From: Phycisphaerae bacterium
GTDB lineage: Bacteria > Planctomycetota > Phycisphaerae > Sedimentisphaerales > Anaerohalosphaeraceae
Direction: 5' to 3'
DNA: 48,001 bases
Assembly (NCBI GenBank): GCA_014859965.1
Contig: JACZKQ010000119.1
Span: forward strand, 1 to 48,001
A program made the translations under genes and the position numbers. The notes beneath the pieces are model-generated. The model had not been told where the DNA came from. It was given only the letters and a program-made list of their open reading frames with translations, and did no database searches. Below, piece by piece: positions 5,204 to 44,964 of the stretch (its first letter is position 1; each line of letters starts with the position of its first letter).

Positions 5204-7126
5204 ATGAGTAACACACATAGTCGGCCTGGTTCCCGGTCTTTGACACGGCTGCTGTTGGCGGCATTCCTTGCGATTGGCGGCGCCTTTGTCCCGGTCCACG
5301 GGGCGCTGCAGGTTCACCTGGAGATGGACGGCAACCTCAATGATTCGGCCGGCGGCGATCACAACGGCGTGCTCGTCGACGGTCATCAGGGGTTCAATGC
5401 CTTTGTGCCTGGCGTCATCGGGCAGGCCCTCGACTTGAGCAATATCAGCTCTGATCCCGGACCGACCAACAACGATTATGTGCGAATTCCTTATGTGATG
5501 ACGGACAGCGGAACGCTGGCCTTTTGGTTTTACGTCGATGACGTGTACAACTATGTCACCCTGTTCGATAATTCGGTGCAGCAGGACGACTGGGAGATGT
5601 GGATCTACGCCACGGGGCAGGCTCGTTTTCGCATCGAGGGCGGCGGCGAGGTGTCGGCGAATCTGCACGGTCTTGCCCCCGACGGCGACGCGCGCGGCGA
5701 CTGGTTTCACCTGGCCGTCACGTGGCGGCGGCTGTCGGAGACGACTGTGGAAAATGCCATTCACGTCAACGGCCGTCTCATTGAGTCGCGCCAGGGACCG
5801 TGGGTCAGCCCCGGCGCAGCGGTTTTTCTCGGAGGCGGACACGCCGGCAATGACGCCGGCACAGGCAAGTGGGACGACGTCCGCATCTATGATCACGTGC
5901 TCGACGACATCGAGATCCGCTGGCTGGCAATGAACTCGCTAATCCTGGACCCCACGGAGGTCAGTGTCAAGGAGGGGCATTCCGGGTCCTATTCAGTCCA
6001 ACTGGACTGCCCGCCGGGCCTCTATCCCGCAACGAACGTATACGTCACGATTACGCCCGATGAAAACGTCGCCCTCAATGGTCCGGCCGCGGGCCGACAG
6101 GTGACGTTGACATTCGAACCCGGTTCTTTCGGAACGCCACAAATCGTACAGGTCCTTGCGGTCGATGACGCAGTCAACACGGGCAACCGGGTTGCGACGC
6201 TGATGCATACCGTCAGCAGCAATGATGCTCGCTGGAATGCGATGCAAAGCGCGTCCCTTTCGGTCTTCATCCTCGAAGATGATCTGGGCTGCGGCGCGTG
6301 GGGCTACCTGCCGACCGACCTGAACCGCGATTGTTATGTCAACTTTGCGGATTTTGCCGCTTTTGCGTCACAGTGGATGGCGTGCACGGACCCCTCCGGC
6401 AGCCATTGCATTCGCCCGTCCAGCGTGAAGATTGCCGCTCACAGAGGCTACTCCCAGGCTGCCCCGGAAAACACGCTGGCCGCCTGCAATGCGGCTCGCG
6501 GCTATGCCGATCTGGTGGAATTCGACGTGCGGCCGACGCAGGACGGCTGGCTGATCCTGATGCACGACGGCAACGTGGACCGGACCACCAGCGGTACGGG
6601 TCCGGTGCAGACTTTCACGCTGGAGCAGATCAGGGCGCTGGACGCCGGATCGTGGTTCTCTTCGGAATACGCGGGCGAGCTTGTGCCTACAATGAGTGAA
6701 GCCATCCTGGCCGTATTGCCGGACATGGTTCCCCTGATCGAACGAAAGACCGGTACCGCCCAGCAGTACGTGGAAGTGCTCAAAGCGCTGCGCTGCACCA
6801 ACGATGTGGTCGTGATCGCCTTTGACTGGGATTTTCTGGCACAGTTGGAGGCAATTGATTCGACGATTATTACCGGGGCGCTCGGCAGCAGTACTCTGAC
6901 GAGCGATACGATCAGCAGCATCCGTTCGCTCGGGATCGATTTCATCAACTGGGAACACAGTACGATCACGGCCGACGAGGTTAGCAGAGTTCGCGGGGCC
7001 GGCATGGAACTGTGGGTCTGGACCGTCAACAGTGCCGCCCGAATACAAGAACTGCTGGACATGGGCATAGATGGTATCACGACGGATAACCCGGAGTTGG
7101 CCCGGCGGCTCCTGGAACAGCAGTAA
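5204..7126 (+). CDS. Secreted LamG / Calx-beta-like / half-dockerin / glycerophosphodiester phosphodiesterase fusion
   Basis: 640 aa. ATG 5204 follows GGGAG; an open extension upstream runs through the terminator and is rejected. Signal peptide about 1-33. One LamG domain (about 34-247) carries the same DDWEMWIY core as the preceding gene. A Calx-beta-like strand-rich module (about 248-345) follows, then one dockerin-like repeat (DLNRDCYVNFADFAAFASQW, about 368-387). The C-terminal 230 residues are a GDPD TIM barrel with the family motifs AAHRGYSQAAPENT, VEFDVRPTQDG and LMHD, then PLIERKTG, and ending in ELWVWTVN and GIDGITTDNP. GDPDs hydrolyse glycerophosphodiesters to glycerol 3-phosphate and an alcohol. 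The catalytic histidines and acidic residues look intact. Outside the cell it could scavenge phosphate from phospholipid head-group diesters or teichoic-type polymers. A dockerin in the middle with the enzyme at the end is an unusual order. Confidence 0.88.
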   Translation: MSNTHSRPGSRSLTRLLLAAFLAIGGAFVPVHGALQVHLEMDGNLNDSAGGDHNGVLVDGHQGFNAFVPGVIGQALDLSNISSDPGPTNNDYVRIPYVMTDSGTLAFWFYVDDVYNYVTLFDNSVQQDDWEMWIYATGQARFRIEGGGEVSANLHGLAPDGDARGDWFHLAVTWRRLSETTVENAIHVNGRLIESRQGPWVSPGAAVFLGGGHAGNDAGTGKWDDVRIYDHVLDDIEIRWLAMNSLILDPTEVSVKEGHSGSYSVQLDCPPGLYPATNVYVTITPDENVALNGPAAGRQVTLTFEPGSFGTPQIVQVLAVDDAVNTGNRVATLMHTVSSNDARWNAMQSASLSVFILEDDLGCGAWGYLPTDLNRDCYVNFADFAAFASQWMACTDPSGSHCIRPSSVKIAAHRGYSQAAPENTLAACNAARGYADLVEFDVRPTQDGWLILMHDGNVDRTTSGTGPVQTFTLEQIRALDAGSWFSSEYAGELVPTMSEAILAVLPDMVPLIERKTGTAQQYVEVLKALRCTNDVVVIAFDWDFLAQLEAIDSTIITGALGSSTLTSDTISSIRSLGIDFINWEHSTITADEVSRVRGAGMELWVWTVNSAARIQELLDMGIDGITTDNPELARRLLEQQ

Positions 7127-8288: not shown

Positions 8289-11200
8289 CTACGGGGAGGG
8301 CTGGAGAGGCGACAGCCAGGAGGCGGCGAAGACGCGCAAGTCGTCAAAATCGACTATTCCGTCTGCCGGAAAGGCCAGATCGCAGGCGGGGTTCCACGCC
8401 GCACTGCCTGATTCGCTCAGCCATGTCGCCGAAAAGACGGCGGCGTCTTTCATGTCGACCTTGCCGTCGCCGTCGAGATCGGCGAGGCTGACGGACCGGC
8501 CGCCGGGAGTCGGCGGGGCCACCCTCCACGCACGCGGGTCGTTTCCGGTCAAGAGGTGAGGCTGTCGCTGCAGAACGGACGCCGCAGCCTGCGGTACCCG
8601 GGGCCAGGGCGAACCGCTGAAATAGATCGCCTCATCGACAATGACCCATGACGGGGAATCGCCGGACGCATCGGGGGCCTGCGGTCTTTCGACGGCGAGG
8701 CGGGCGGTGACGTTGGAGAGTCGGCCGGAAAAGGGACCGACCAGGTCAATGCCGGGGGTTAGTGATTGGGCGGAGTACATGGCCCGGAACGAAGACAGGA
8801 CGGCGGGTTCGGCAAAGGGGTCGAAGTCGGCAACAACAAGGCGGCCGTGCGGAGGAATGGATGCAGTCGGGCCGAATACGTAATTTATGCTGCCGGTCAG
8901 CCGCCAGAGGCCGGCTGCGTTTTGCAGCGGGATCGTATCGCCGGTGGGGTTGTATAACTCGATGTACTGGCGGGCGGGCAACTCGGCATGGTACATGATT
9001 TCGCTGATTACGATGTCGGAGACGGGGCCGCCGTTCGGCAGATCGCGCGTGGGCGTCAGGGTTCGCCAGAATGGATCGCCGTCGGGGAAGCGGCCGAGCG
9101 TTACATTGGTTTCCTGGCCTTTGAAACGGACGGAGTCGACGACATGCTGCGGGCCGGCGGCGGGCAGGTAAGACAGGTATATCTGCTCGCCTGCCTTGTC
9201 GAGCCCAAAACCGGTTGTGATCGGATTGTGGAAGTCGTTCACTTCATCGAATGTGATCCTGCCGCCGGGCTGGACGATGGCATCCGGCAGGGCCCACTTC
9301 GTGAGATTGTCCTTATTATCGCTGAGATACCAGTTGCCGTTGATCTGGACCGGCGAATCGCCCGTATTGAAAAGTTCTATCCAGTCGTTGGAGGCGTGCG
9401 GCGGCAGATGATAGTCGGTGTGGGCCATGAATTCGTTGAGCAGTATGCCGGGGGGCAGTTCGGGGTCGGGCCCGCCGGGCGAGCCGTGAATGTACGCGCT
9501 CTGCCGCCAGTTGCCGCAGTAGTTCATCGAGCCGGACGGCTGATCGAAGATTGCACCGGTCAGCGGAACGAGCGAATGGCCGGGCCCGTCGGCGCCGAGG
9601 GGCCAGCCGCGCGAGTCGTTGTATGCAAATGCCAAAACCTGGGCTCCGAAGGCGCCCCGGATTACGATGGAATCGCCTTCGTTGGCAAGGGCCCCGGCGT
9701 ACTGCCCCGCGACGGGAATGTTGTCGCCATAGCGGGATTTAAATGCGGCGATGTCGGAGGCGACCACAATGTACCCGCCGGGTGGAATCGATGCGATTGT
9801 GCTCTGTGCAAACGAAAACCAAATGCCGCCGCCGATAGTCACCTGGGAGATGTCGAGCGTCTCCGGCCCGGTGTTGCACAGTTCGATGAATTCGTAATCC
9901 TTGCCGCCGAGCGGGTCATGCATGACCTCGGTCACGCGGAGGTGTTGGCGGAGAGGTCTTTCGCTGGACACGCTGGTTACGGCAATCGCTGCGGAGGCGA
10001 GCAATCTGTCCTGATAATCGTACGCCTGGAGCGAAAACTGGTTGAGCCCGAACTCCAGCGGCAGGGTGGTCGACCACGAGGTCAGACCGGTCCACCGGAC
10101 GTCGAGCGGCTCATCTCGTCCGGCAAGGCGGATCGTGCGGACGTTGATCCAGCCGTTTCCCTGCAGGGTGACGGTATCGGCGTCGATGGTGAATGGATTG
10201 CCTCCATTTGTGGTTATGGCGTACGATACCGCGGCCGGGAGTCGTCCGAGCACATAGGCGCGGCGCTGATCGACGCGACTGATGATCTCACTGCTGACGT
10301 TCTGGCCGCACACGGCGCCGTAGTGCTCAACCCATTCGGCAAGATAGGCGGTGTTGAACGCAGTGTCGATAATGTCGTGCAGGTGGCCGTAGAAGAGCCG
10401 CTTGAATCGATCTATGGCGATGACCTTTTGCAGATTGCTGCCCGAGCCGAAAATCGGCGCGGAGGTGGATTGGAAGAAGGCAAAATCCAGGTCCCACGGC
10501 AAAGCGAGTACGCGACGGTCGGCGGGGCGAACGTAGAGCATGAGATTGTGAGCCAGACCCTGGTTGTAGGTGTCGCCGACTCCGCCGAGCGATTCGAAGG
10601 CGAAGACTCGCATCCAGTGGTCCACGTCGATGACTTCATTGATGGCGCCATCGAGCGGGGTTCCCGTGAGGGCGAACGTTTTGGCCATGTCGATGATCCG
10701 TGAATAATCGTCGGCGGCGCGATTGTTCTTAATGAGATAATTCCACCGGTAGGCTTCCTTGTCGGGGCCCATGTCTCTGAAATCGATGGCCAGCACGTTG
10801 CTGGGAGGCAGTTTCAGGCTTTGCGGGTTGCCGTCGACGGTGTTCTGAGAGTGGTAGATCAACTCGAATTCGAAGAGGGTGCCGTCTGAGCCGTTCTTGT
10901 ACTGCGCGTCCAGGAATGCGTCGTCATAACGGGCCAGCATCAGTTGGGCGGGCCCGTTGCGATCACCCAAAGGCGAGATCAGGTGGACGACGTCGTCGTG
11001 CATGCCGGGCAGGCCGCCGGCGCGGTTGCCTATGTGCTTGAGAACGAGTTCACGGTGACTGGCTCCTGCGCCGCCCGGGCCGCCGTTGCGGTCTATGGAG
11101 ACGACGTCGTGGACGCCCTGGAACAATTGTTCGGGACGGAAGCGGACATTGAAGCCGGCGGCGGTATGATTGCGGCCGTAACCGCTGCCTTTGAGGTGCA

Positions 11201-14200: not shown

Positions 14201-15176
14201 CTGTCGCCGGGTCGTAGCCGGCCAGATCGAACGTCGTGCGGAACACATAAGCCCCGGCCGGCAGATTATCCGTGCCTTGGCCGCTGAGGCCGATCCATTG
14301 AGAGGCCGTGTCGTTGGCAAGCCATGCGGGATGATTCTGCATGGCAAACACGTGTTCGCCGGTTGCTCCGATTGTGTAATGCGGGTCTCTCTGGCCGGGG
14401 GCCAACGGCTTTCGTTCGTCGTCCAATCCGGTGCTGAAGAGGGTATCAATTGTCCTGCGTTCGGTGGGGGCCGCGCCCGGCCCCACGTAAAACCCGGCTC
14501 GGCCCGCCGGCCAGTCATCCTCTGCGTAGTCGGGCTGCTTCCACGCATTGCCGAGATCAACGCCGGCGTCACTGTAGCGCCATGTGTCAAAGACGCCGAT
14601 GAGCTTGTGTTGGGTCGGGAGCAGGTCGCCGGAGGGGAAGTTCTCTCGGCCCGGCGTTCCACCCGGCTGGGGACTGCCTCGCCAACTCGCCGGGTTTGCG
14701 CTTGCGGTGTGCGGATCGCGTTTGGCAAGCGAGGCCCCGGAGCCGTCGGCGGCAACGGGCCATTCGCCTCCATCCCCGTATTCTATTTCGTCCATGATGC
14801 GGCCGCTGTTGCTGATCAACTGCAGCAGTTCGCCATTGTTATCGAGGCGGCCGTGAAAGGGTCCGAGGACGTTTGAGAGCCCGGCGACGTCTTCAAGGTA
14901 AGCCGGATCGATAGCTACGACGAGGTAGCCGCCGGCGGTGATGATGGTGCCCGCAGGGAAGCAGAAATCAATCCCGGCAGCAAGGCGCCAGCCCGACAGG
15001 TCGACGTTTACGGCCAGCAGGTTCTGCAGTTCCAGCCATTCGAGCTGCGCTTCGTTCTGCTCCGGATGGTACATGATCTCATTAAAGACGACCACACTGT
15101 CAACCGCCCTGGCGATCGAGCCTGCCAGCATGATCGCCACGACGGCGGCGGCGATAATTCGAAATGTCGTACGCAA
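8289..15176 (-). CDS. Giant secreted lamin-tail / CotH-like protein with C-terminal dockerin
   Basis: 2295 aa. The start codon is TTG (15174-15176), chosen because GGAGGG lies 4-5 bases upstream and a signal peptide follows (AAVVAIMLAGSIARA). Lamin-tail domains, marked by N-E-[IF]-M then W-[IL]-E-L, begin near residues 28, 527, 649/869, 1749, 1912 and 2055. Beta-sandwich segments with VYFLNG-type or YDDGFVAYING motifs lie between them. A Big/Fn3-like unit (about 1172-1260) precedes a CotH-like region (about 1280-1640) containing LHLKGSGYGRNH and PWDLDFAFF. A two-repeat dockerin-like module ends the protein (DLDGDGKVDMKDA; DGIVDFDDL). CotH-family proteins phosphorylate secreted partners; the WDLD motif fits a metal-binding site, but the usual lysine-containing block after the R-G-x-S/G motif is weak, so kinase activity is uncertain. 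It is probably a surface structural or modifying protein. Confidence 0.85.
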   Translation of the reverse strand: MRTTFRIIAAAVVAIMLAGSIARAVDSVVVFNEIMYHPEQNEAQLEWLELQNLLAVNVDLSGWRLAAGIDFCFPAGTIITAGGYLVVAIDPAYLEDVAGLSNVLGPFHGRLDNNGELLQLISNSGRIMDEIEYGDGGEWPVAADGSGASLAKRDPHTASANPASWRGSPQPGGTPGRENFPSGDLLPTQHKLIGVFDTWRYSDAGVDLGNAWKQPDYAEDDWPAGRAGFYVGPGAAPTERRTIDTLFSTGLDDERKPLAPGQRDPHYTIGATGEHVFAMQNHPAWLANDTASQWIGLSGQGTDNLPAGAYVFRTTFDLAGYDPATAELAMLIAVDDVLNNVHLNGLSTGIASTGFSSLAGPFSLTGGFAQGINTLEFLFANGGSSPNPSGLRVRIDGTAAAVVEQTELAAAADAYYFRKEFFYDYKPFTRVTLALNTLIDDGAVFYLNGHEVHRLNMPDGEIAFDTHALLEVGTCAFTGALAISSAPLVNGRNVLAVEVHHAAGSEDMRFAASLTAVETPLPPDEPVTIAINEITSARIAPMRIELYNYGDMPVDTAGFVLACRGTTHGQYTLPAGRIDPAAFMVIHEADLGFHPSDEDKLFLYSADNLIVDAAVVKNSLRGRSPDGVGQWARPHAETPGSHNSFVFRDEIVINEIMYHCRPVRETAAEHETTIIIPSGAFAAVRVPQDNSEGLQWTGGNESFDDSTWRDAQGSTTGVGYETSPGDFAGLIGADTQALMYGGNTSVYIRIPFDLADPAQVETLILHMKYDDGFVAYINGAEVAHANAPGRDGNAQLLTWSSRSTASHPNAQAVAFKPFDITSHKQRLRPGRNILAIHGLNWSAGSTDLLILPELEARRVLSPHAPFHEPDQEWIELYNRSNTPVDLTGWTLRGGIRYNFEEGTAIPPDGYLVVAKNSEQLRAQYSAAAVVGDFDGRLSNSEDRIVLSDSNGNIADDVHYYDGGYWPGYADGGGSSLELRDPCADNSKAAAWAASDETADSQWRTYTYRTVAGFAPGSNEPSNWSEFIIGLLQAGEVLIDNVSVIEDPAGTRIQLIQDGSFETQPGTWRLLGNHGLSRIIAEPGNPYNRILHLVATGPTEHMHNHVETTLAGGRTVVNGREYEISFRARWLAGSDQLNTRLYFNRAPKTTLLHVPQSAGTPGQRNSQYTPNMGPTISALSHSPAVPRADEDVTVTVQAEDPDGIASMTLYWAAAETRFQTLPMTPSGGGRYTATIAGLPAATLVQFYVEGRDVLDAVTTWPPAGSESRAMFKVDDNQARPAPAHNFRIIMTASDAAFLHSSTNVMSNHRMPATVIYKESEVFYDVALHLKGSGYGRNHTAAGFNVRFRPEQLFQGVHDVVSIDRNGGPGGAGASHRELVLKHIGNRAGGLPGMHDDVVHLISPLGDRNGPAQLMLARYDDAFLDAQYKNGSDGTLFEFELIYHSQNTVDGNPQSLKLPPSNVLAIDFRDMGPDKEAYRWNYLIKNNRAADDYSRIIDMAKTFALTGTPLDGAINEVIDVDHWMRVFAFESLGGVGDTYNQGLAHNLMLYVRPADRRVLALPWDLDFAFFQSTSAPIFGSGSNLQKVIAIDRFKRLFYGHLHDIIDTAFNTAYLAEWVEHYGAVCGQNVSSEIISRVDQRRAYVLGRLPAAVSYAITTNGGNPFTIDADTVTLQGNGWINVRTIRLAGRDEPLDVRWTGLTSWSTTLPLEFGLNQFSLQAYDYQDRLLASAAIAVTSVSSERPLRQHLRVTEVMHDPLGGKDYEFIELCNTGPETLDISQVTIGGGIWFSFAQSTIASIPPGGYIVVASDIAAFKSRYGDNIPVAGQYAGALANEGDSIVIRGAFGAQVLAFAYNDSRGWPLGADGPGHSLVPLTGAIFDQPSGSMNYCGNWRQSAYIHGSPGGPDPELPPGILLNEFMAHTDYHLPPHASNDWIELFNTGDSPVQINGNWYLSDNKDNLTKWALPDAIVQPGGRITFDEVNDFHNPITTGFGLDKAGEQIYLSYLPAAGPQHVVDSVRFKGQETNVTLGRFPDGDPFWRTLTPTRDLPNGGPVSDIVISEIMYHAELPARQYIELYNPTGDTIPLQNAAGLWRLTGSINYVFGPTASIPPHGRLVVADFDPFAEPAVLSSFRAMYSAQSLTPGIDLVGPFSGRLSNVTARLAVERPQAPDASGDSPSWVIVDEAIYFSGSPWPRVPQAAASVLQRQPHLLTGNDPRAWRVAPPTPGGRSVSLADLDGDGKVDMKDAAVFSATWLSESGSAAWNPACDLAFPADGIVDFDDLRVFAASWLSPLQPSP

Positions 15177-15331: not shown

Positions 15332-18300
15332 TCAATTCCATCTTTCCGACAGCAGGCCAAAATCGACCATATCCACAGCGCCCGAACGATTGACGTCCGC
15401 CGCGGGATCGTCGGTCAGCCAGCCTTCGGCCATCATCGCAAGATCTTCGAAGTCGACTTGCCCGTCTTCGTTCAAGTCGCCCACCACCGGCAGCATGGCC
15501 ACCATTGCGGCGATCTGATCCGGCTGGAGTTCGTCCTGCCAGATTGTGATCTCGTCGATTAGTCCTTCGAGGCGATACCAGTCATGCGGGTGCAGAGCCT
15601 GGGTGAGCCAGTCACTGAGCCAGGCGCGGTCGGTTCCGAAGGCGCTCCACGCGTTGACGTACTGACCTGCCATGTCGTTGGTCGTGCCCGCGGAGATGCC
15701 GTCAATATAAAGTTCCACCTTTCCGAATGTCGATCGCGTGACGGCGAAATGATGCCACAGCCCATCGTCAACCCTCGGACCGGTGATGCGCCGCAGGCCT
15801 CCGGAGGCGGAAATAAATCGGAAGTGTCCCGGGACATTGTCTGCGCCGTCGAACCCCACATAAACAGCGAGAATGCCGGGATTCCTCATTGCGAAAATCG
15901 GCCCCTGGCTGTCATTGGTCCTGAAGTACCCCGACATCGAGAAAGCAGAGCCCTGGGCGGCCGTAAGCGGCGTCGTGTCGGCAAGGCTCACGTAATCATC
16001 GACGCCATCAAGGCTGATCGCCGTACCATCGATTCCGGGAACCCATGCGGCGTTCGGGTCGGCGAAGTTGGTAAGTGTGCCGTCCAGGCCGGTGCCGGTG
16101 ACCTCATGGGCCACACCGCCGCTCCCTTCGTCCATCTTCCACGCCACGAGCAACTGGGCAGGCGTGCTGGATTTCGTGTAGAACGTCCAGACCGGGCCGT
16201 TGTATACGATCTCCCCTTCCAGCAAGCCGTCCACCTTCCAATAGTACCGGGTCTGCGGATCAAGGTCCGTGAGTGCGAAACTCGTACCCGGCAACGCCAT
16301 CTGCTGGGCTACGATAGCCGTCAATTCCGGGTCAGTCGCAACCGTCAGGTTATACGTTGCACCCCACGCGCCTTCGAGCGGAACCGGCAACCAACTCAGT
16401 ACAGCGTCCATATCCACCGTCGCCAGCGGGGCGGGAGTGGGCGTCAGCTCGAACGGAAGGGCGATCTCATTTGAAAACGCGTAATGGTGCCAGCTATTCC
16501 CTTTGATCTCAGCGTCGAACACAAAGCTCATCTCCGTGCTGGTTGCGGTGTAGGTGTACTTGATGAGCCTTCCATTACTGCCGCCAGGGGCATTCTGGTC
16601 GATCCGGGTGGGGCTGTCGGGATTGTCGCTGGGGGTGATCCTCACGTAACGATCTCCCGCTCCTCCGAAGCTGGTCGTGTACAGAGTTGTGATGTACTTC
16701 GTACCGAGGGTCAAGCCCGTGAACGTAAGCCTTGGCAGTACGCCGGCCTGTTCACCAAAGTAGAACCGGCGGGCAAGAGTCAGGCTGTTACCCGTAATTG
16801 GCGGCGCATGATCGACCCAGAACACACTCGGAGCGCCGGTAAGGCTCCAGTTGACTCCGGATGAGTCGTTGACGCCGTTTGCCTTGACATCATTCTCGAA
16901 GTATACCCCGTTGCCCGCATAGATCAGTTCGCCATCGGTCCCCGTGGCGCTAAAGTTCACGGCATGGGTGTACGTCTTGCTCGAACTGATCGATGAGTCC
17001 GCATCGCCCGTCCACGGATGGAAACTGAACGCTCCCACAGTTGCGGCGATCGTTCTAAACGTCCAGATGGGGCTTGTGTAAACCACTTCATTGGCCCTTA
17101 CGAGTTCGACCTGCCAGAAATAGCGTGTATCGTAATCGAGCGGCTCAGTCGGAACGAACTCGGCCGTCGTCAGGCCCGTTGCGCCATCGGTCGACATGTT
17201 CATATCGAGCGTGGTGCCGAGGTAGACATTGTAGGTGTCCACGGAAACACGGTCAATCGGCGCCGTCCAGCGCAGCACGACGTCGAGGTTGGCTTTTGCG
17301 TCCATCGCCGGAGTCGGATTCAGACGGTAAGGAATGAGATCGACCATAGCGTCGATCTGGCTCTGCTTGAGCGCACCTTCCCAGACAACCACTTCGTCGA
17401 TCAGGCCATTCAGATACCGCTGCCCGGCCGCGCCGTGACTGTCATTGATCCAGCGGATCTCCGAACCGATCGCCCGCAAGTCCACATTATAGCCTACGCG
17501 CATGTCGTTCAATGAGCCGCAGGAGCGGCCGTTGACATACAGGGTGATCGTCCCGTCGATATCCCGGGTGAGCGCAAAATGATTCCATTCCCCGTCATTT
17601 ACCGCAGGGCCGGTGAGGCGGAAGAGACTGCCGCCGTCGAACTCCCGTGCGATAAACCGCAAACGGGTCGGGATGGTGTCGGCGCCGTCATAGCCCACGG
17701 TCAGCGCCACAATCGGGCCGCCGTCTGCTGCATTACGGAACGTGACGAGCGGGCCTTCGGCGTCCATTGTTTTAAAGTATCCAGAAATCGAGAAACCCTT
17801 GCCTGCGCCGAACGGCAGAGGGGCGGTATTACCGAGATCGACATAGCTGTCTGCGCCGTCGAAGCTCAGACAATTGCCTGCGATGCCCTCGACCCATGCG
17901 GTGCCGCCCTCATTGGGATCGTCGAAATTGATCGCCGCAGCATGATAGCCTCCGATGGATTCGCCGACAGTCGTACCGGAGGTCTCATCCATTTTGTATT
18001 GCAGCGCCTTCTCGGCCGGGGCAAGCGTCTTTGTAAGAAACATCCATGCCTTGCCGGTTTCATTCGGGTCGGTGCTGTAAAGCAACTCGCCGTCGTCGAA
18101 TATATCCACCTGCCAATAATACGTGGTGGATTCGAGCAGGCTCAGCGTGTACGTACCTGCCGTCAGGTCGGCCACCCGATTGACGACATTGGGGTCGGAC
18201 CACCAGTACAGGTCGTATACGAGATTGCTCGTGTCAACGCCCTCATCGGGAATAGCGGTGAAGTCGAGGGTTACCGTCAAATCGGTGAACGCACCCGGAA

Positions 18301-26675: not shown

Positions 26676-28046
26676 CTAATCGGAACACATCGGATCAAAA
26701 GGATTACCGCAGCGAAGCCATTCGGCCGCGAGAACGGCGAGGTCCTGCATGTTGACATAGCAGTCGCCGTTAAGATCCGCCGGCAGGGCGGTGCGGCAGT
26801 GAAAGACAGTGAACGGGGCGTCGCTGGTGTCGCAGATATCGGGTTTCTCAACCGCCGCGATGTGGATGAGGCACTGTTCGGACTGGATGTCGCCTTCAAT
26901 TATCCACGGATATGACCCTGAATTCTGCGAGATTGTGAGGGTCGTCCAGGATGAGCCGCCGTCGGCCGAGAACTGGATGAGTACGGCGCCCACCTGGGCG
27001 AATGGGCTGGTGTTCCATCTAATAGTTTGTGTGCTGCCTGCGGTCAGGTGCTCGGCGCCGTTGGGCCAGAGGACATTCAGCGCGGGCTCAACTGTATAAC
27101 TCCAGAGATCGTATGGTTCATATTGCCCCGGCAGGCTTAGGTCCTGGGTGTGCCTGCCCATGAATGTCAGCGTCACGGTCGGGCCATCCACTTCAGCGAG
27201 AAGATATCCATAGCGGGGATGCACGTGCTTAACGAGCACGGGGTTATTATCGCCATTGTCTCCGTCGTATACATCGTTCCAGAAGTGCCATTGAATGGAC
27301 CCTGCGGTGCCCACGACGAACTGGTGAAGATCATTGTCCGGATCACCGTCCAGATCATCGATTCTCGCGTGATTATAGAAGTGGTCATGTGTGCAGAAGT
27401 ATGTGCGGCCGCCGGCGTTGGCGATGCTCCGCCAGAAAACGTCGCGTTCTTCCGGGAAAAAGCCCATGCAATCGTCATGCGCAACAGAGAAGGCGGGTTC
27501 GTGGGCAAAGACAAAAATGTGCGGAGCGGCATTCTGAGCAAGTGTGGCGTCAAGCCAGTCCTGATTGATTCTGTGCAGCTTGATGTATTGATCAAGCCCG
27601 ATGAAGAGAGCGTTCTTGTGCGGGGCTGAGAAGGTGAGGTTTTCCTCGCCTGCGGGCCCGTTTTGCGGCAGGGCGTAATCACCGCTGAATACATTGTGCC
27701 ACGGGGCTAACCCGGAGTCGTCATCATGGTTTCCTCTGACGGGGTAGACCTTGACACCTGCATCATACAGGGGTTGGAGGGCTGCACGCCACGTCAAGAG
27801 CTGCGTTTCCATGTCATATGAACAGCTATCGCCCATTACGAGGTCGCCGGGAAACAGGAGGCACTCGACGTCGCGGTCGAGCATTTCCTCGGCCAGTTCA
27901 CCGAGAATCAGGGTGTTGACGCAGTTCTCATCGTATGTGAAGGGGGTGCCGTAGCTGTCACCCGTGACCGCGAATCGCCACGACTCCGCACCGCCGTGCC
28001 CAGAAGCTATTACCAGCATCATCGGCATCAAGAGGAACTGCTTCAA
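26676..28046 (-). CDS. Secreted metallophosphoesterase with C-terminal half dockerin (copy A)
   Basis: 456 aa. The start is TTG 28046, 7 bases after GAGGAGG; an adjacent TTG at 28049 is the alternative. Signal peptide about 1-21. The metallophosphoesterase domain (about 24-300) has VTGDSYG, LLFPGDLVMG, VRGNHDDD, FVFAHEPAF and CTHDHFYNHAR; the last has T in place of the usual G. A beta-sandwich (about 320-415, LWPNGAEHLTAGSTQTIRW) is followed by a single dockerin-like repeat, ADLNGDCYVNMQDLAVLAAE, and a C-terminal disulphide-type CGNPFDPMC. It probably hydrolyses phosphomonoesters or diesters outside the cytoplasm. It lies 30 bases after its paralogue and they are likely co-transcribed. Confidence 0.87.
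   Translation of the reverse strand: MKQFLLMPMMLVIASGHGGAESWRFAVTGDSYGTPFTYDENCVNTLILGELAEEMLDRDVECLLFPGDLVMGDSCSYDMETQLLTWRAALQPLYDAGVKVYPVRGNHDDDSGLAPWHNVFSGDYALPQNGPAGEENLTFSAPHKNALFIGLDQYIKLHRINQDWLDATLAQNAAPHIFVFAHEPAFSVAHDDCMGFFPEERDVFWRSIANAGGRTYFCTHDHFYNHARIDDLDGDPDNDLHQFVVGTAGSIQWHFWNDVYDGDNGDNNPVLVKHVHPRYGYLLAEVDGPTVTLTFMGRHTQDLSLPGQYEPYDLWSYTVEPALNVLWPNGAEHLTAGSTQTIRWNTSPFAQVGAVLIQFSADGGSSWTTLTISQNSGSYPWIIEGDIQSEQCLIHIAAVEKPDICDTSDAPFTVFHCRTALPADLNGDCYVNMQDLAVLAAEWLRCGNPFDPMCSD
26740..26833. repeat. 94-bp direct repeat shared by the two metallophosphoesterase genes (copy 1)
   Basis: This stretch and 28141-28234 match at 90 of 94 bases by my alignment. It encodes the half dockerin and the preceding TSDAPFTVFHCRTALPADLN. 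The rest of the two genes is much more diverged, so the tail has been copied or converted recently. Confidence 0.85.
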
Positions 28047-28076
28047 CAAAATGCCTCCTCAGCGTTCAACTCTAAA

Positions 28077-29438
28077 TTACAATTCACATGCCGGGTCAAA
28101 TACATTTCCGCATTTCAGCCAATCCGCAGCCAAGAGCATCAGGTCCTGCATGTCGACATAACAGTCGCCGTTAAGGTCCGCCGGCAGGGCGGTGCGGCAG
28201 TGAAAGACGGTGAACGGGGCGTCGCTGGTGTCGCTTACAGTAGCGTCTTCCCAGTCGCTTAAGCGCACGAGGCATTTGTTACTGTCCTGGGCGTGTGCGG
28301 TGGGCCAGAGATATGAACCCGTATGTGCGGCGACAGGGGTGCTGTTGATTGCACGCCATGCTGAGCCGTCAAAATATTCCAGCCGTACGTTCTCCGTGCC
28401 TGCCCATGCCTTGCGCTGCCACTGAATCATGTTGTCCCCGCCGGCAACCAGACGTTCGCCGCCGTTTGGCGATAGCAGAACAAGCGAAGCTACCGAATAG
28501 CTCCACGACTCAGCGGCAGCATACACACCCGTAATGGCCAGATTGTTTGTATGACGAGCAATCCACGTCAACGTCACGTCCGAGCCCTCCACGTCCACCC
28601 GCACATAGCCGTATGTTTCGGCATGCGCGACATTGACGGGCGTCATGGCGCCGTTGTCGCCTTCATAGCGCGGTTCCCATGTATAGGGCCGGGCCCCGGC
28701 CGTTCCAACAATGTACTGGTGCAGGTCATTTTCGATATTGCCGTCCCCGTCGTCGATCCTCGCATGGTCGTAGAAATGGTCATGTCCTGCAAAGTAGACG
28801 CGAGCACCCGCATCGGCGAGCGACCGCCAGAAGGCGTCCCGTCTTTCAGGGTAGAAGTCCAGACACGGCCGCGGGAGGGCTCTATAGGCCGGCAGGTGAC
28901 CAAACACGAAGACGTGGGGGTGGGTGTTGGCGGTTAACTGGGCATCGAGCCACGGTTGGTTCGCAGCAAAGATGTCTACGTACTGGTCAACCCCCACGAC
29001 CATCGCATTCTTGTGCACAAACGAATAGGTCAGGTTGACCTCGCCTGGCGGGCCGTTGCCCGGAAGTGCATAGTTTCCGGAAAAAGTTTCATGCCAAACA
29101 GAGATATCCGGGAAGAACTCTCCATCCTCGTGATTGCCGCGAATGACGTAAACGCCGATGCCCGCATTGTAAACCGGCTGCATGACGCTCAGCCAATAGG
29201 ACAGTTGGGTCTCAACCTCGTAAAAACCGCTGATTAGATCGCCCGAAAAAAGCAGGAAATCGACCCCAGCGCTGACAGTCTCTTCGGCGACTTCCGACAG
29301 GATTACGCTATTGACGCCGTTATCCGGCCCACGGCTGTCGCCCACAATAATGAAGGACCATGGTTCCGGCGAGTGCGCCGAGGCCAGCGCGGCCGCCGAT
29401 AGGGCAAGCAGCATGCTATTTATATGCAGACTGCGCAT
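28077..29438 (-). CDS. Secreted metallophosphoesterase with C-terminal half dockerin (copy B)
   Basis: 453 aa, a paralogue of the adjacent copy A. Signal peptide about 1-21 (LLALSAAALASA). Metallophosphoesterase motifs: IVGDSRG, LLFSGDLISG, VIRGNHEDG, VFGHLPAYR and FAGHDHFYDHA; here the GHDH motif is complete. A beta-sandwich follows (LLSPNGGERLVAGGDNMIQW), then one dockerin-like repeat (ADLNGDCYVDMQDLMLLAAD) and CGNVFDPAC. There is no clear ribosome site close to ATG 29438; an in-frame ATG at 29414 would still leave a hydrophobic signal. It is the first gene of a probable operon with copy A. Substrate unknown; extracellular phosphatase or phosphodiesterase is the best guess. Confidence 0.87.
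   Translation of the reverse strand: MRSLHINSMLLALSAAALASAHSPEPWSFIIVGDSRGPDNGVNSVILSEVAEETVSAGVDFLLFSGDLISGFYEVETQLSYWLSVMQPVYNAGIGVYVIRGNHEDGEFFPDISVWHETFSGNYALPGNGPPGEVNLTYSFVHKNAMVVGVDQYVDIFAANQPWLDAQLTANTHPHVFVFGHLPAYRALPRPCLDFYPERRDAFWRSLADAGARVYFAGHDHFYDHARIDDGDGNIENDLHQYIVGTAGARPYTWEPRYEGDNGAMTPVNVAHAETYGYVRVDVEGSDVTLTWIARHTNNLAITGVYAAAESWSYSVASLVLLSPNGGERLVAGGDNMIQWQRKAWAGTENVRLEYFDGSAWRAINSTPVAAHTGSYLWPTAHAQDSNKCLVRLSDWEDATVSDTSDAPFTVFHCRTALPADLNGDCYVDMQDLMLLAADWLKCGNVFDPACEL
28141..28234. repeat. 94-bp direct repeat shared by the two metallophosphoesterase genes (copy 2)
   Basis: Partner of 26740-26833; four substitutions and no gaps over 94 bases. It covers the half-dockerin coding region of the second paralogue. 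Confidence 0.85.
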
Positions 29439-38298: not shown

Positions 38299-41200
38299 TC
38301 ATTCGCCCGGCGTCGGGTCGGCGGCGCGCCAGTTGACCACGTCATTTCCGTACTCCGCCGGGGCGATGCGTTCCAGCGCCTTACCCGCTGCCGCCGCTTC
38401 CGCCGGCCACGGCCACGTGTTCTCATACACGACGCGATCAACGCGGATATAGTACTGTCGCCCGCTTTCGGCGTCGCCGGGTTTGGCGAGCGTCACCTGC
38501 TCGCCGCTATTGTCGAGCCGCCCGTCGTACGGACCCAAAGCCGGCGCGTCCAGCTCGCCGTAGCGTTCGAGAAACGCCGCCGGATTCTTCACCACGACCA
38601 GCCGTTGGCCCGCGCCGATCACGGTTCCCATGGGAAATTCGTAATCGATCCCGTCGGTGAATCGCCACGGCACCCAGGCGTTCGCTTTTCCGTCGAATTC
38701 CTGCAGCGCTACCGGCGAGTCGCTGATGTTGAGCAGTTCGAGATACTCGTATTCGTTGTGGTCCCATGTGCCGCCGGATGCGGGGTTGTACATGATCTCG
38801 CTGATGACCACCGGGCCCACCTTCGGATAAGCGTTGGCGGCCCCGGGCGTGTTTTCGCTCATCGCGACGAAGTTGTACGTGCCCGTGCTCTTGAGATATC
38901 GCCCGAACGCCACGCCGGTCTCGGATGCGTCGAATCTCTCCTCTTCGTAATAGCCCGTCAGCGCGCCGTCGGCATCCGCCCCGGACCGCAGGTAAAGCGT
39001 CTCGCCGTTTTCGCTTAACGCAAACGGCACATGGCAGCCCGCATGATTGCGGTTGCCGAAGTGCTGATCCTCATAGAAGACCGCATAGCCGCCGGGGCTC
39101 AGCGTCGTGCCCGCCGGAATCTCGAACTTGCGGTAATTGTCCCGGCTGTCGCTGAGGAACCACCCGCCGATGCTGATGGTCGAATCGGTGACGTTGCGCA
39201 GTTCAATCCAGTCCGCCGCCGCCCCGTGCGAGTGGGCCAGAATTTCGTTGATCTTCACCGCTCCAGGTCCGGGCACGGCGCCCGTATCATCGAAGCCCGG
39301 CGAGCCGCCCACCCGTGCGCTCGGCCGCCAGCAGGACTTGCTGCCGGGGTATTTGCCGCGCGTGTAGAGCGCCTCGACGGAGGCGCTGTCCAGCGACTCG
39401 GAATAGATGCGCACGTCGTCGATGAGCCCGGCGAAGAACGGGCCGTCCTCGTCGAACGTCCCGATGGTCACGAGGCCGCCCGCCGATGTCGAGATCGACC
39501 CGGAGTTCACCGCACTGGGCGGATCGGGCCGCCCGTCGACGTACAGAACGATGTCGCGCACGGCGCCCGTGTCCGAGACGACCGCGATGTGCCGCCACTG
39601 CCCGTCGTTGACGACTTTGGAGCCTGTCACGTGTCCGCTGCCCGCGTCGACCTGCAAGAGACCGTCTTCGTTGACGACCACCGCCCATTTGCCGGAGCCC
39701 GACTGGCCCCACGCGACGATCGCGCCGCCGGCCCTGGTGCATATCCACGCTGCACACGTCCGGTCCGCCGATCCGCCGATGCCGGCGTACTCGGCCGCCT
39801 GGATGTAGTCTTCGACGCCGTCGAACAGCATTGCCCCGTCGATCCGGCCTTTGCCGTGCCGCCATACCGGCTCGCCGAACAGCAGGGCCGTATGCCCGTT
39901 GCCCGAAGCATCCGGCGCGACGTCGCTGCTTCGCTCATCCAGCCGCCAGTGCGCAGCCGTCCGCGCGTCCAGATCCTGTATCCGCTGCTGCGCCGCGCTG
40001 CGAAGGGTCAGGGAAAACCCGTCTCCGTCGGTGATGTCATACCAGTCGTCATCGTACGAAAACTCACAAATCGTCCTGCCGAACGCGTCGGCGAGGCGAA
40101 TCTTTTCGCCCGCGTTGTCGAGTCGGCCCGTGTACTCGCCGGCGATCAGCCCGGCAAATGCAGGATACGCCTTCTCGAAGTCCGCCCGGCTGGCGACCAC
40201 GACCGCGTAGTCGCCGCGTTCGAGCTGCACGTCGCCGAACGTAAAATGAATGCCCTCGGTAAACCGCACGAGGTTCAGGTTGATCATCTCGTCGCCGACG
40301 TTCCTGACCTCGATGAACTCGGTGTTCGACTCGGCGTCGTCCGCGTCGGCGGGGTGGTACATGATTTCCGTCACCTGCAACCCCTCGGCGACCGGCCCGA
40401 CGGCATACGGCGCTTCGGTCAGCGCGCTCCACTGGCCCGCCTTGCTCAGCGTCCGCGCCTTGACGATGCGGCTCTTGTCCAGCGTAAACGGCTCGCTATA
40501 CAGCGTCGCCGTGTCCGACACGACCACGTTTTCATGCACGACAAGCTCCGCCCATGTCAAATAGTCCGGACTCGCCGCATCGAAGTTAACGCCCAGGATG
40601 CCGAAGACGTTCTCAGCGCCCGGCCGCAGCAGAGACCTGTACCGCGTCAAGTCGAACTCGCTGACCTGGGCGGCGTCCGCGTTGGGGCGGTCCACCGTCG
40701 CCGTCGAATCCCAGCCCGGCTGACCCCACACGTTGCTTCGGGCGACCTCGTAGCCGTTGAGGTACGCCACGAAACCGTCGTCGTACCGTATCCGCAGCGT
40801 CATGCCGAGCACCTCGCCGAGCGTCGGAGAAACCTCGAACGGGATGCGAATGCAGCAGGTGCTGTTGGCGTCGTACATGCCGTCCTCGACGTCGATGCCG
40901 ATGTACTCGGCGAAGTCGGCGGTCCCGATCTCGTAGCCCGCGCCGCCGGTTCCCGTGCGCCATTCAGGCCCCGTGTCGTCGTAGTCCGGTTTCGCCCAGA
41001 ATTCCCCTTCGACCATCACTCTCTCGATCTCGTACGGCCACAGCGCCCGCGAATAGATGCGCACGTCGTCGATCTCGCCCTCGAACGAATCGATGTCGCG
41101 AATGACGTCGTTCTTTTCATCGTACCACAATTCATGATTATTCCCGATCATCACGCGCCACGACGTCGCCGTCGGGATCTCCAAATCGCCCTCCACGTCG

Positions 41201-44200
41201 AGCATGCCGTTGACTTCGCCGTCGACGTACAGAATCATCTTGTTGTAGCGCCGAACCGCGGCCACGTGGTGCCACTCGTCGTCGTTCCATGTATCGTCCG
41301 AAATCAGATTGCCGATGCCCGCCAGTGAAAAACGCAGTTTGCCCTCCGCCGCCGCCTGGGACAGCATCCACGAGGAAGTGCCCCGGGTCACGATGCCCGC
41401 CTGCGGATGGTGCACCGAATACCTGACCCAGCAGGCCAGGGTGATGTCGTTGCGAATATCGAAGACGGGCACGTCGTCGCCCGGCACATAGACGAAGTCG
41501 TCTTTCCCGTCGAATCGCACGGCGCTGTTGTCGATCTCGTTGCGATTCGGCACCAAGAACACGTTGCCGTACGGAGTGCCGTCGTGCGTGACGGGCGGAT
41601 CCTCGCCCGGCCGCTCCGCACTGTCGGCGTAATTGTCGTTGAACTTCCAGTGGCCCACGTCCGGTCGCGGGGCGTTATTGAAGCCGTCGTCCGGTCCCGT
41701 GGGAACATGCACGCGCTTGAAGGCGTTCGCATCGAACATCGCGGCCGTCGCCATGTGCAGTGCGTTCTCCGGAAGACGCGGGTCGGCGCCGTCCAGCGTG
41801 AAGAACATGCGGCCCTCGGGAGCGCTCATGGAAATCTGATCGTCCTTCGAAATATGCCCGCCGTGGCGATACACACCGTTGACGGCGTAGCGGGGGGCGG
41901 TCACCGACGGGTACCACTGCTTGGCGCGAAACTGGCCCAGCACGACGCCGGTCCGCGACGGGAAATAGCCGTTGATAATGCTGTTGATCTCGGCGACCCA
42001 GTCGGCCCTGGTGAACGGCTCTTCCCGCTTCGAATCGCCCCAGCGCGCGCTTTCGGCGATGATCGCCTCGTCGATTTCACCCGCCCGCGACATCAGGCTC
42101 GCCGCCGCCTGCCCCGGCGTAAGCAGTCCGTTGTCATAGAAGTAATTGTGCACCCGGTCGCCGAAACGCACCCGATATTCCGGATGCCCCGCGAGCCTCT
42201 GGTGCAGCCACTGCGGATTGAAATACACGAAATTACTGCCCGCCGGATACGGCCCGGTGCGGTCCCGGTTGCGGTCCATCAAAAACAGTGAATGCTCCGC
42301 GTCGTGCCGGAAGAACTTAAACCCGTCCGGAGCGGTGCGATTGTAAATGCCGTAATAATTGTTCGGTCGCCCGTTGCCCAGAAACCATGAGATCGGCGAA
42401 TCGCAATCCCCCACGTAGAACGTCGAGATCATGTAGTCGATCAGGTTGTCCACGTCAACCAGCCGTTCCAGTGCGTCGTCCGGCACGCCGTTGGGGTCGA
42501 GCCCCTGAACCCCGAAATACGCTTCATTTGTTCCAAAGCCCGCCGCGGCCGCCTCCCACAGCCGCCTGTACGCATCCAGCGTGCCGTCCGTCGCCTCGAT
42601 CGTGTACGGCCGACCCGGACCGGCGTCCACCTTCACAACGTCGTAGTCCTCCACCTCGCCGCCCATGTACGACGCCGCGTATCGCGCCTCGCTCCGCTCC
42701 TGCGACTGAAACAGCCCCCAGTAATGCCCGTCGAGATACAGATGATAGTAGCGGCTCCGCGTGTACGGCTGGCCCATGTCGCGCTGCATATCCCGCGAGA
42801 ACACCTCGCGCACCAGCGAATTGTGCCTGTCGCCCCCGTAACTCCACGAGTAGTTCTGCGCCGTCCGCAGATCCACCTTCTGAAACCGGCTCACCCCTTC
42901 GTCGCCGAACAGCGGAAAATCCAGCACCGACTTTCCGTATTCGCCCCGGAAGAACAGGCGAAAGGCGTGCTTGGGGTTATCGCTCGAACGGCTGTAGCCG
43001 CCGCGAAGCCGCAGCCCCGCGTTGATGTGGAACCCCTCGCCGCCGCCGGGGTTCAGCATCTCCACCGACGCCGGCCGTTCCCAGTCCCGCCCGTCCCGCA
43101 GGGCGTTGACATAGATCCCGCTGCCCGAGTTGAACAGGTTGCCGAGGTCCGTCACAATCGAAATCGAAGGAATCGCCGTAAGCGACCCCTCGATGCGGCC
43201 GCTGTATTCTTCGCTGTCGACCACCTCCGGGTCCATCCCGTAGTTGATCTGCTGCCCGTTGACGCTGCCGTTGGGCCACTGCGCCGAAGGCGGCTCGCCG
43301 TCGGGCGACTGCCGGATCACGTCATGGATAAACAGGTACGTCTGCGTGTCCACGTTGCCCGGCGACCAGCCCGGCTTCGACGCCCTCGCCCGAAGCGTCG
43401 TCGTCCTGTCGATCACGATCGGCCCGATGTAGCGTCTGCCGTACCGGTCCGTGGGCGTGCTGCCGTCGGTCGTATAACGGATCACCGCCCCGGGCGTCTT
43501 GCAGCGGATCCGCAGCGAGAACGAACCGTCGTAAAAGCCCCGGTCGTGGCTGAACTTCGTATCTCCGACGTATCCCATGAAGGCGCCGTTGTTCGGCGCA
43601 CCCGGAGTCGGTATTGCGAAGTACCGCATCTCGTCGTAGAACATGCCGAAGGAAATGTCCTCTTCCTGCGGCCCGAACCCGAAACGCTGCGGCGAGAACT
43701 CATAAATCGTGTACTCGTGCGCCGCCGTCTCGCCATCCGGATAGATCAGCCCAAGATACTCCCCGTCCTTGCTCAGGCTGAAATTCGTGTGCAGAGCCCC
43801 CTCGTCGTCGACATACGGATAATTGCCCGGATTGGCCGCCTCCGTCTTTCCCGAGGCGAACACGACGAGATACGCACCCGGCGCCAGAACCACCCCCGCG
43901 GGAAACGTCCACTTCGTCAGGTTGTTCTCGTTGTCCGTCAAATGCCAGCCCGCAAGATCGACCGGCAGCGACGACGCGTTATACAGTTCGATCCAGTCCG
44001 CGAAGACCTCTTCGCCCGCCACCGTCGTCGCAAGCGTCCGCTCATTGTCCGCCATGAATTCGTTGATCACCACCGGGCTCTTCTCGCGCAGCCAGTTCGC
44101 CGCCATCCGCGAGAAGTCCTCGAGATTGACGCCGTCGCCCGCCCGCACGTCTACGCACCGCACGTCCGCCGTATCCGTCCGCGCCAGCGCCCACACCTCC

Positions 44201-44964
44201 TCCATCGTCAGCGCCCGCTCGTAGATCCGCACCTCGTCGATCGTCCCGCGGAAATACCGCCCCGAAGCGCCGAACACCCCGACGCACACATCATCGCCCG
44301 CCGACGTGGAAATGTCCTGCGCAGTGCGTGCGCTCACCACCTCCAGGACGCCGTCGACAAACAGGCGCACATCGTCCGTGCCCGTGCCGTCGAAGGCCGC
44401 CGCCACGTGGTGCCACGCGCCGTCGTTGACATAGGTCGACCCGTCGACGTACCCCGTCCCCACGTCCAGCCGAAGAAGCCCATCCCCCTGAATGCACAGC
44501 ACCCATCGCCGCCCGGCGCCGCCTGCGCCCCACGTCAGGATCTCCGCGTTGGTGCGATACGTGCGTATCCATGCGCTGCACGTCCGCGGATCGCGCCCCG
44601 TGATGCCCTGGTAACCCGTCATCCGCACAACGTCGTCGACGCCGTCAAACTCCATGGCGCCGTTCAAATACCCGCCGCCCGGCCGCCAGATCGCCTCGCC
44701 CTCCACCTCGCCCGTCCGCCCGTGTCCCGAGGCGTCCGCCGCAATGACATCCTCCGCCTCGTCGAGTTTCCAATGCCCCGCCAGAGCCGTCTCCGTGCAG
44801 AGCGGCGGCTCGGAAAGCCACTCCAGCGCCAGCAGACTCAGGTCCGCCAGGTTGACCTTGCGGTCGCCGTTGAAGTCGCCCACCATAAAGCCGGCCTGCG
44901 CAGACGCACACACGACCAGCGCCGCAGCCGACGCAAATAACAACGCCTTGCGAAAATCAAACAT
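38299..44964 (-). CDS. Giant secreted dockerin / LamG / lamin-tail / CotH-like protein
   Basis: 2221 aa. ATG 44964 follows AAGGGTGA. Signal peptide about 1-24 (ALVVCASAQA). One dockerin-like repeat (DFNGDRKVNLADLSLLALEW) starts near 29, LamG 1 fills about 60-265, and the partner repeat (DVRAGDGVNLEDFSRMAANW) follows near 272. Then come a lamin-tail domain (about 301-460), a chitobiase-type C-terminal domain (about 481-545, YTTDGSTPTDRYG), a CotH-like domain (about 598-1000, GLRLRGGYSRSSDNPKHAFR and FFRHDAEHSLFLMD), LamG 2 (about 1105-1310), a beta-sandwich (1320-1470), lamin-tail (1530), LamG 3 (1671-1865) and two more lamin-tail domains (1903, 2053). The CotH-like part keeps the R-G-x-S-R, lysine and H-D-A-E motifs, so kinase-like activity on secreted proteins is possible. 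It ends without a C-terminal dockerin. Confidence 0.87.
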   Translation of the reverse strand: MFDFRKALLFASAAALVVCASAQAGFMVGDFNGDRKVNLADLSLLALEWLSEPPLCTETALAGHWKLDEAEDVIAADASGHGRTGEVEGEAIWRPGGGYLNGAMEFDGVDDVVRMTGYQGITGRDPRTCSAWIRTYRTNAEILTWGAGGAGRRWVLCIQGDGLLRLDVGTGYVDGSTYVNDGAWHHVAAAFDGTGTDDVRLFVDGVLEVVSARTAQDISTSAGDDVCVGVFGASGRYFRGTIDEVRIYERALTMEEVWALARTDTADVRCVDVRAGDGVNLEDFSRMAANWLREKSPVVINEFMADNERTLATTVAGEEVFADWIELYNASSLPVDLAGWHLTDNENNLTKWTFPAGVVLAPGAYLVVFASGKTEAANPGNYPYVDDEGALHTNFSLSKDGEYLGLIYPDGETAAHEYTIYEFSPQRFGFGPQEEDISFGMFYDEMRYFAIPTPGAPNNGAFMGYVGDTKFSHDRGFYDGSFSLRIRCKTPGAVIRYTTDGSTPTDRYGRRYIGPIVIDRTTTLRARASKPGWSPGNVDTQTYLFIHDVIRQSPDGEPPSAQWPNGSVNGQQINYGMDPEVVDSEEYSGRIEGSLTAIPSISIVTDLGNLFNSGSGIYVNALRDGRDWERPASVEMLNPGGGEGFHINAGLRLRGGYSRSSDNPKHAFRLFFRGEYGKSVLDFPLFGDEGVSRFQKVDLRTAQNYSWSYGGDRHNSLVREVFSRDMQRDMGQPYTRSRYYHLYLDGHYWGLFQSQERSEARYAASYMGGEVEDYDVVKVDAGPGRPYTIEATDGTLDAYRRLWEAAAAGFGTNEAYFGVQGLDPNGVPDDALERLVDVDNLIDYMISTFYVGDCDSPISWFLGNGRPNNYYGIYNRTAPDGFKFFRHDAEHSLFLMDRNRDRTGPYPAGSNFVYFNPQWLHQRLAGHPEYRVRFGDRVHNYFYDNGLLTPGQAAASLMSRAGEIDEAIIAESARWGDSKREEPFTRADWVAEINSIINGYFPSRTGVVLGQFRAKQWYPSVTAPRYAVNGVYRHGGHISKDDQISMSAPEGRMFFTLDGADPRLPENALHMATAAMFDANAFKRVHVPTGPDDGFNNAPRPDVGHWKFNDNYADSAERPGEDPPVTHDGTPYGNVFLVPNRNEIDNSAVRFDGKDDFVYVPGDDVPVFDIRNDITLACWVRYSVHHPQAGIVTRGTSSWMLSQAAAEGKLRFSLAGIGNLISDDTWNDDEWHHVAAVRRYNKMILYVDGEVNGMLDVEGDLEIPTATSWRVMIGNNHELWYDEKNDVIRDIDSFEGEIDDVRIYSRALWPYEIERVMVEGEFWAKPDYDDTGPEWRTGTGGAGYEIGTADFAEYIGIDVEDGMYDANSTCCIRIPFEVSPTLGEVLGMTLRIRYDDGFVAYLNGYEVARSNVWGQPGWDSTATVDRPNADAAQVSEFDLTRYRSLLRPGAENVFGILGVNFDAASPDYLTWAELVVHENVVVSDTATLYSEPFTLDKSRIVKARTLSKAGQWSALTEAPYAVGPVAEGLQVTEIMYHPADADDAESNTEFIEVRNVGDEMINLNLVRFTEGIHFTFGDVQLERGDYAVVVASRADFEKAYPAFAGLIAGEYTGRLDNAGEKIRLADAFGRTICEFSYDDDWYDITDGDGFSLTLRSAAQQRIQDLDARTAAHWRLDERSSDVAPDASGNGHTALLFGEPVWRHGKGRIDGAMLFDGVEDYIQAAEYAGIGGSADRTCAAWICTRAGGAIVAWGQSGSGKWAVVVNEDGLLQVDAGSGHVTGSKVVNDGQWRHIAVVSDTGAVRDIVLYVDGRPDPPSAVNSGSISTSAGGLVTIGTFDEDGPFFAGLIDDVRIYSESLDSASVEALYTRGKYPGSKSCWRPSARVGGSPGFDDTGAVPGPGAVKINEILAHSHGAAADWIELRNVTDSTISIGGWFLSDSRDNYRKFEIPAGTTLSPGGYAVFYEDQHFGNRNHAGCHVPFALSENGETLYLRSGADADGALTGYYEEERFDASETGVAFGRYLKSTGTYNFVAMSENTPGAANAYPKVGPVVISEIMYNPASGGTWDHNEYEYLELLNISDSPVALQEFDGKANAWVPWRFTDGIDYEFPMGTVIGAGQRLVVVKNPAAFLERYGELDAPALGPYDGRLDNSGEQVTLAKPGDAESGRQYYIRVDRVVYENTWPWPAEAAAAGKALERIAPAEYGNDVVNWRAADPTPGE

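Follow-up and report, generated by a model that had tools for sequence, protein, structure and literature searches.

A dockerin with a LamG domain apparently nested between its two F-hand repeats in a lamin-tail/CotH protein of a Phycisphaerae bacterium

Within the window analysed here, the whole 48,001-nucleotide stretch of DNA from a Phycisphaerae bacterium, a 2221-aa secreted-type CotH/lamin-tail protein (38299..44964 (-); ORF call and Pfam) carries near its N-terminus two dockerin-type F-hands, F1 and F2, flanking a complete LamG domain. Judged from the sequences, this looks like a genuine domain-in-domain insertion, with LamG sitting inside the inter-repeat loop of a dockerin, rather than two unrelated half-modules. 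Dockerins, which are among the smallest modules used for protein docking, are as a rule regarded as units of about 60 residues that cannot be divided. Our main reading, to which we assign a probability of about 0.7 on the basis of sequence comparisons, is that F1 and F2 would still form one dockerin, into whose loop LamG has been inserted.

The domain order of the 2221-aa protein is a signal-peptide-like N-terminus (assigned by reading only), F1, LamG, F2, a lamin-tail domain (LTD), a chitobiase C-terminal-like domain, a CotH kinase domain, and further LamG and LTD domains; Pfam recognised three stretches of Laminin_G_3 and four of LTD, together with CHB_HEX_C_1 and CotH. F1 (residues 29-50, 44815..44880 (-), GDFNGDRKVNLADLSLLALEWL) is of the repeat-1 type, and its calcium-ligand positions 1, 3, 5, and 12 are complete. 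F2 (residues 271-292, 44089..44154 (-), VDVRAGDGVNLEDFSRMAANWL) is of the repeat-2 type; by direct reading it keeps D1, D12, and the helix, while positions 3 and 5 are occupied by R274 and G276, with the loss of two calcium ligands. The first lamin-tail domain (residues 295-415, 43720..44082 (-); Pfam and paralogue comparison) adjoins F2 as in unsplit paralogues. The inserted LamG (residues 61-261, 44182..44784 (-)) is supported by Pfam, AlphaFold, and fold matching: the PF13385 profile match covers the full domain, the AlphaFold pLDDT is mostly >90, and the best fold match is domain 4 of AbnA. Clostridial neurotoxin binding domains, which also appeared in the fold search, were disregarded, having 10-17% identity and only the jelly-roll fold in common with it.

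Both F-hands were detected by a profile HMM built from the repeats of ten contiguous dockerins, with split members and window sequences excluded, which scored F1 at 18.5 bits and F2 at 19.4 bits. A chance origin of these matches was rejected, since the best of 200 shuffled proteins reached only 2.0 bits. With separate profiles for the two contiguous repeats, F1 scored 18.7 bits and F2 4.5 bits as repeat 1, and F2 scored 20.0 bits and F1 14.1 bits as repeat 2. The two F-hands flanking a complete LamG, as proposed in the initial annotation, are thus recognised by profiles of contiguous dockerins and are not mimicked by shuffled sequences. The Pfam dockerin model PF00404 covers the first repeat only, with 12.7 bits against a cut-off of 22.9; because it scores one half only, and that below the cut-off, annotation pipelines miss such dockerins. 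The gap between F1 and F2 is 220 aa; among the fetched loci, which comprised 32 non-redundant split pairs and 60 contiguous pairs, the contiguous repeats are separated by 3-15 aa, except for two pairs with gaps of 32-34 aa.

The genome to which the window belongs encodes many paralogues with the order F1-F2-LTD and 5-11 aa between the repeats, and a profile of these unsplit paralogues aligned with both repeats of type I dockerins of known structure (2y3n_B, E 1e-9; 4fl4_A, E 8e-9). On a tree of the downstream LTD region, the unsplit copy on contig C84 and the split copy on contig C48 are sisters with a support of 100/100; starting at F2, 550 aa of the two are 62.5% identical, the F1 stretch is 44% identical, and the main extra piece at the dockerin is the LamG present in C48. 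The nearest unsplit paralogues of the 2221-aa protein itself are 39% identical to it over about 530 aa downstream and 48-54% identical in F1. The window provides two internal controls with contiguous dockerins, one at the C-terminus of a 1213-aa LamG/fn3 protein (15335..15481 (-)) and one at the C-terminus of the other LTD-CotH protein (8418..8588 (-)), with a 13-aa linker from which the start of its first repeat was computed. The latter protein is a second LTD-CotH giant (2295 aa, window 8289-15176) with an uninterrupted C-terminal dockerin instead of a split N-terminal one. Unsplit paralogues exist, the halves are still recognisable as repeat 1 and repeat 2, and the split is found more than once; these findings support the description, made before the comparisons, of two dockerin repeats separated by an inserted LamG.

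A search with the split N-terminus revealed five complete copies of F1-LamG-F2-LTD in the same genome (the window, C45, C37, C111, and C48), one further copy apparently broken across contigs C8 and C95, and the same arrangement in 12 other genomes from two families of the order; no full-length match outside those two families was found among 397 sampled genomes of the class. The same order of parts in a dozen further genomes ruled out an assembly error as the source of the split. Viral contigs yielded LamG matches and no split dockerin. The survey of homologues suggested in the initial annotation found F2 in all 18 LTD-type members, the most distant of which is only 36% identical to the window sequence. 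Without the LTD, F1-LamG-F2 turns up in at least three unrelated contexts: it precedes GHL10 (PF02638) in five genomes, it precedes a pectate-lyase-like domain (PF12708), and elsewhere it stands at the C-terminus of the protein, with F2 as the final element.

The order of the parts and the spacing of 213-241 aa are uniform across all these contexts, as they could be if F1-LamG-F2 had arisen once and then moved between proteins as a cassette. However, the LamGs of the GHL10 context fall into a separate clade with a support of 100, which also contains LamGs located after uninterrupted dockerins, and the split label must change at least four times on well-supported branches of the LamG tree and at least twice on the LTD tree, which makes such a single origin unlikely. 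The trees thus require several gains or losses of the split, and repeated insertion (or insertion combined with loss or LamG exchange) is more likely than one event.

Several single F-hands are located in the window, including those that the initial annotation had correctly assigned to a GDPD protein and two metallophosphoesterases. The LamG-GDPD protein has one F-hand (6317..6379 (+)), after which there is a C-x8-C loop but not a second repeat, and the two neighbouring metallophosphoesterases each end with one (28116..28181 (-) and 26715..26780 (-)). These enzymes are tandem paralogues (window 26676-28049 and 28077-29438), and their C-terminal single F-hand tags are near-identical; a further single F-hand was found at window 4997-5062. 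Among the matches listed for the genome, 98 of 124 ORFs have one detected F-hand, a count in which weak second repeats may be missed, and 18 of 21 sampled repeat-1-only matches proved to be true single F-hands, mostly C-terminal. Single F-hands, which by far outnumber paired dockerins among these matches, look like a widespread C-terminal tag, and since they are common in the genome, an F-hand evidently needs no partner.

These numbers speak for the possibility that F1 and F2 are two independent single F-hands, each folding or docking alone on its side of LamG and never pairing, as does a protein on contig C50 (L054) in which two F-hands lie 468 aa apart with a LamG and a beta-helix between them. 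On the other hand, the single F-hands are repeat-1-like in 22 of 22 cases (with an LTD-trained profile), while the split F2s are repeat-2-like and differ from the single F-hands of the genome with p 6e-6, a value that is optimistic because the sequences are related. On the same scale, F1 outscores F2 in 24 of 30 split proteins. Repeats are typed less than perfectly if the whole set of contiguous dockerins is used, with 32/48 and 30/48 assigned correctly in leave-one-out trials. The unsplit paralogues also argue against independence, showing that both halves were once one module. Moreover, a search for F-hands across the genome listed ten distant pairs, and in seven of them the distance is 213-242 aa, corresponding to one LamG length; of the other three, one combines F-hands from two separate genes of the same length, one belongs to a tandem array of dockerins, and one is L054. 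For distant pairs within one protein, among the matches listed, this spacing was found in seven of eight. In view of this clustering and of the repeat types, independent halves seem rather improbable.

The L054 protein has its F-hands at both ends, and the second of them terminates with a C...C tail like those of single F-hands; pairing of the F-hands is less obvious there. A tandem array of dockerin-like repeats is located in a 14,875-aa open frame of the same genome (contig C142, ~140187-142100; loci L092, L095, L104, and L110).

A further alternative is that the split is a relic, in which LamG broke the dockerin, F1 keeps its role, and F2 is decaying linker sequence. The two calcium-ligand positions missing from F2 of the 2221-aa protein would agree with this, as would the retention of all four checked positions in 67% of split F2s versus 87% of split F1s. 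However, degeneration is no less marked in the F2s of uninterrupted dockerins, 54% of which keep all four positions, and the retention of D1, D12, and the helix, as well as the persistence of F2 throughout the divergent LTD-type members, make decay very unlikely.

Additional indications come from the cysteines of the linker, two of which are often present in ordinary, unsplit linkers. In the 2221-aa protein, Cys56 (44797..44799 (-)) is among the final residues of the linker ahead of LamG, and Cys270 (44155..44157 (-)) directly precedes F2. Among split modules lacking a cysteine in the F2 loop, 13 have cysteines both before LamG and directly before F2, 13 have neither, and none has a single one, a pattern that goes back to about three independent changes, of which well-supported branches account for one, and is non-significant after kinship correction. 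This both-or-neither distribution would suit a disulfide C56-C270 at the base of the insert. In six other split modules, the cysteine before F2 is accompanied by a loop cysteine in F2, which would suit a local cysteine pair. At locus L150 both linker cysteine positions are replaced by other residues, and the linker cysteine pair is absent from non-LTD split modules. A C...C loop after the helix is also found beside some single F-hands; therefore, the cysteine pair need not report pairing of F1 with F2. If the C56-C270 bond forms, it would bring the two termini of LamG, and with them F1 and F2, next to each other.

Another cysteine pair was noticed in the first F-hands of all fetched loci, where a cysteine just upstream and a cysteine at loop position 6 are both present in 34 cases, both missing in 50, and represented by one only in 8. 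This pair probably forms a local disulfide by which a lone F-hand is stabilised; it is missing in the 2221-aa protein.

AlphaFold was run with two alignments, one containing LamG-only rows and the other containing rows with an F-hand before LamG. In both runs, LamG was predicted with confidence, the pLDDT of F1 and F2 was about 40-69, and helices were predicted with low confidence at residues 39-50 and 281-295.

Whether the two halves pair across LamG or each works alone was left undecided in the initial annotation. The cysteine pattern, the typing of F2, and the genome-wide spacing now favour pairing, short of proof, while the abundance of single F-hands speaks for halves that act alone. According to the favoured reading, that of one dockerin with LamG in its loop, LamG would have entered an ordinary type I-like dockerin at the short loop that joins its F-hand repeats. 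The termini of jelly-roll LamG domains usually lie side by side, and for this reason the domain could hang from the dockerin loop like a knob. A C56-C270 disulfide would close the base of LamG, and F1 and F2 would stay neighbours as in the unsplit form. The result could be a compact surface module at the N-terminus of an LTD/CotH protein, binding via LamG and docking via F1/F2 to a partner other than a Pfam-type cohesin. We infer the packing of the halves, the disulfide, the docking role, and the binding of sugar by LamG from the features described above.

A Pfam search for cohesins (PF00963) gave no match in the window's 99% complete genome, and this family is present in 9 of 161 genomes of the order. 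Two relatives encode proteins that are about 2000 aa long and contain two cohesins each (G006 contig C1, ~2213032-2214213; G037 contig C1, ~1003495-1004697), which are candidates for the type of docking partner used where one is retained. One could tentatively hypothesise that in one planctomycete order the inter-repeat loop of dockerins is a recurrent site of LamG nesting, where lectin-type domains were inserted independently on several occasions. The resulting composite 'lectin-in-dockerin' module would dock to something other than a classical cohesin, and a ligand of LamG could influence the pairing of the F-hands.

A natural and repeatedly evolved insertion of about 200 residues in the dockerin loop would indicate that the halves tolerate separation in sequence, and the LamG-in-dockerin arrangement could be regarded as a ready-made design for display modules. 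The finding also sharpens the question of what the more than 100 dockerin-like F-hands of a cohesin-less genome bind.

No description of a dockerin interrupted by a folded domain was found in the literature searched, which was mostly open-access. Type I dockerins (PF00404; 2y3n_B, 4fl4_A, 1daq) likewise consist of two F-hand repeats, each a calcium loop plus helix, in a fixed order; the module described here differs from them in its 220-aa linker with a complete LamG, in the partly degenerate F2, and in the lack of a Pfam cohesin in the genome. The dockerins of Ruminococcus flavefaciens include some with inter-repeat linkers of 37-45 aa; group 1b carries an insertion and ScaC carries two, and certain C-terminal dockerins show only one recognised repeat (PMC2930009). 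Those of group 1 and group 2 are a precedent both for long linkers and for single recognised repeats, although no folded domain between the repeats is described for them (PMC2930009). In planctomycetes, work on the 'planctosome' hypothesis (PMC6461901) and on Limihaloglobus sulfuriphilus (PMC11557425) demonstrates that the phylum does possess non-cellulosomal dockerins. The cohesin-dockerin systems described there concern the same phylum and likewise place dockerins on non-cellulolytic surface proteins, and a lamin-tail protein is part of the model (PMC6461901, PMC11557425); however, those genomes encode cohesins, of which Pfam detects none in the window's genome, and a split dockerin is not described there. 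Finally, the insert resembles LamG/Laminin_G_3 domains (PF13385) and domain 4 of AbnA (5hon) in being a full LamG jelly roll, but unlike these it is nested inside another module instead of forming one bead in a chain.
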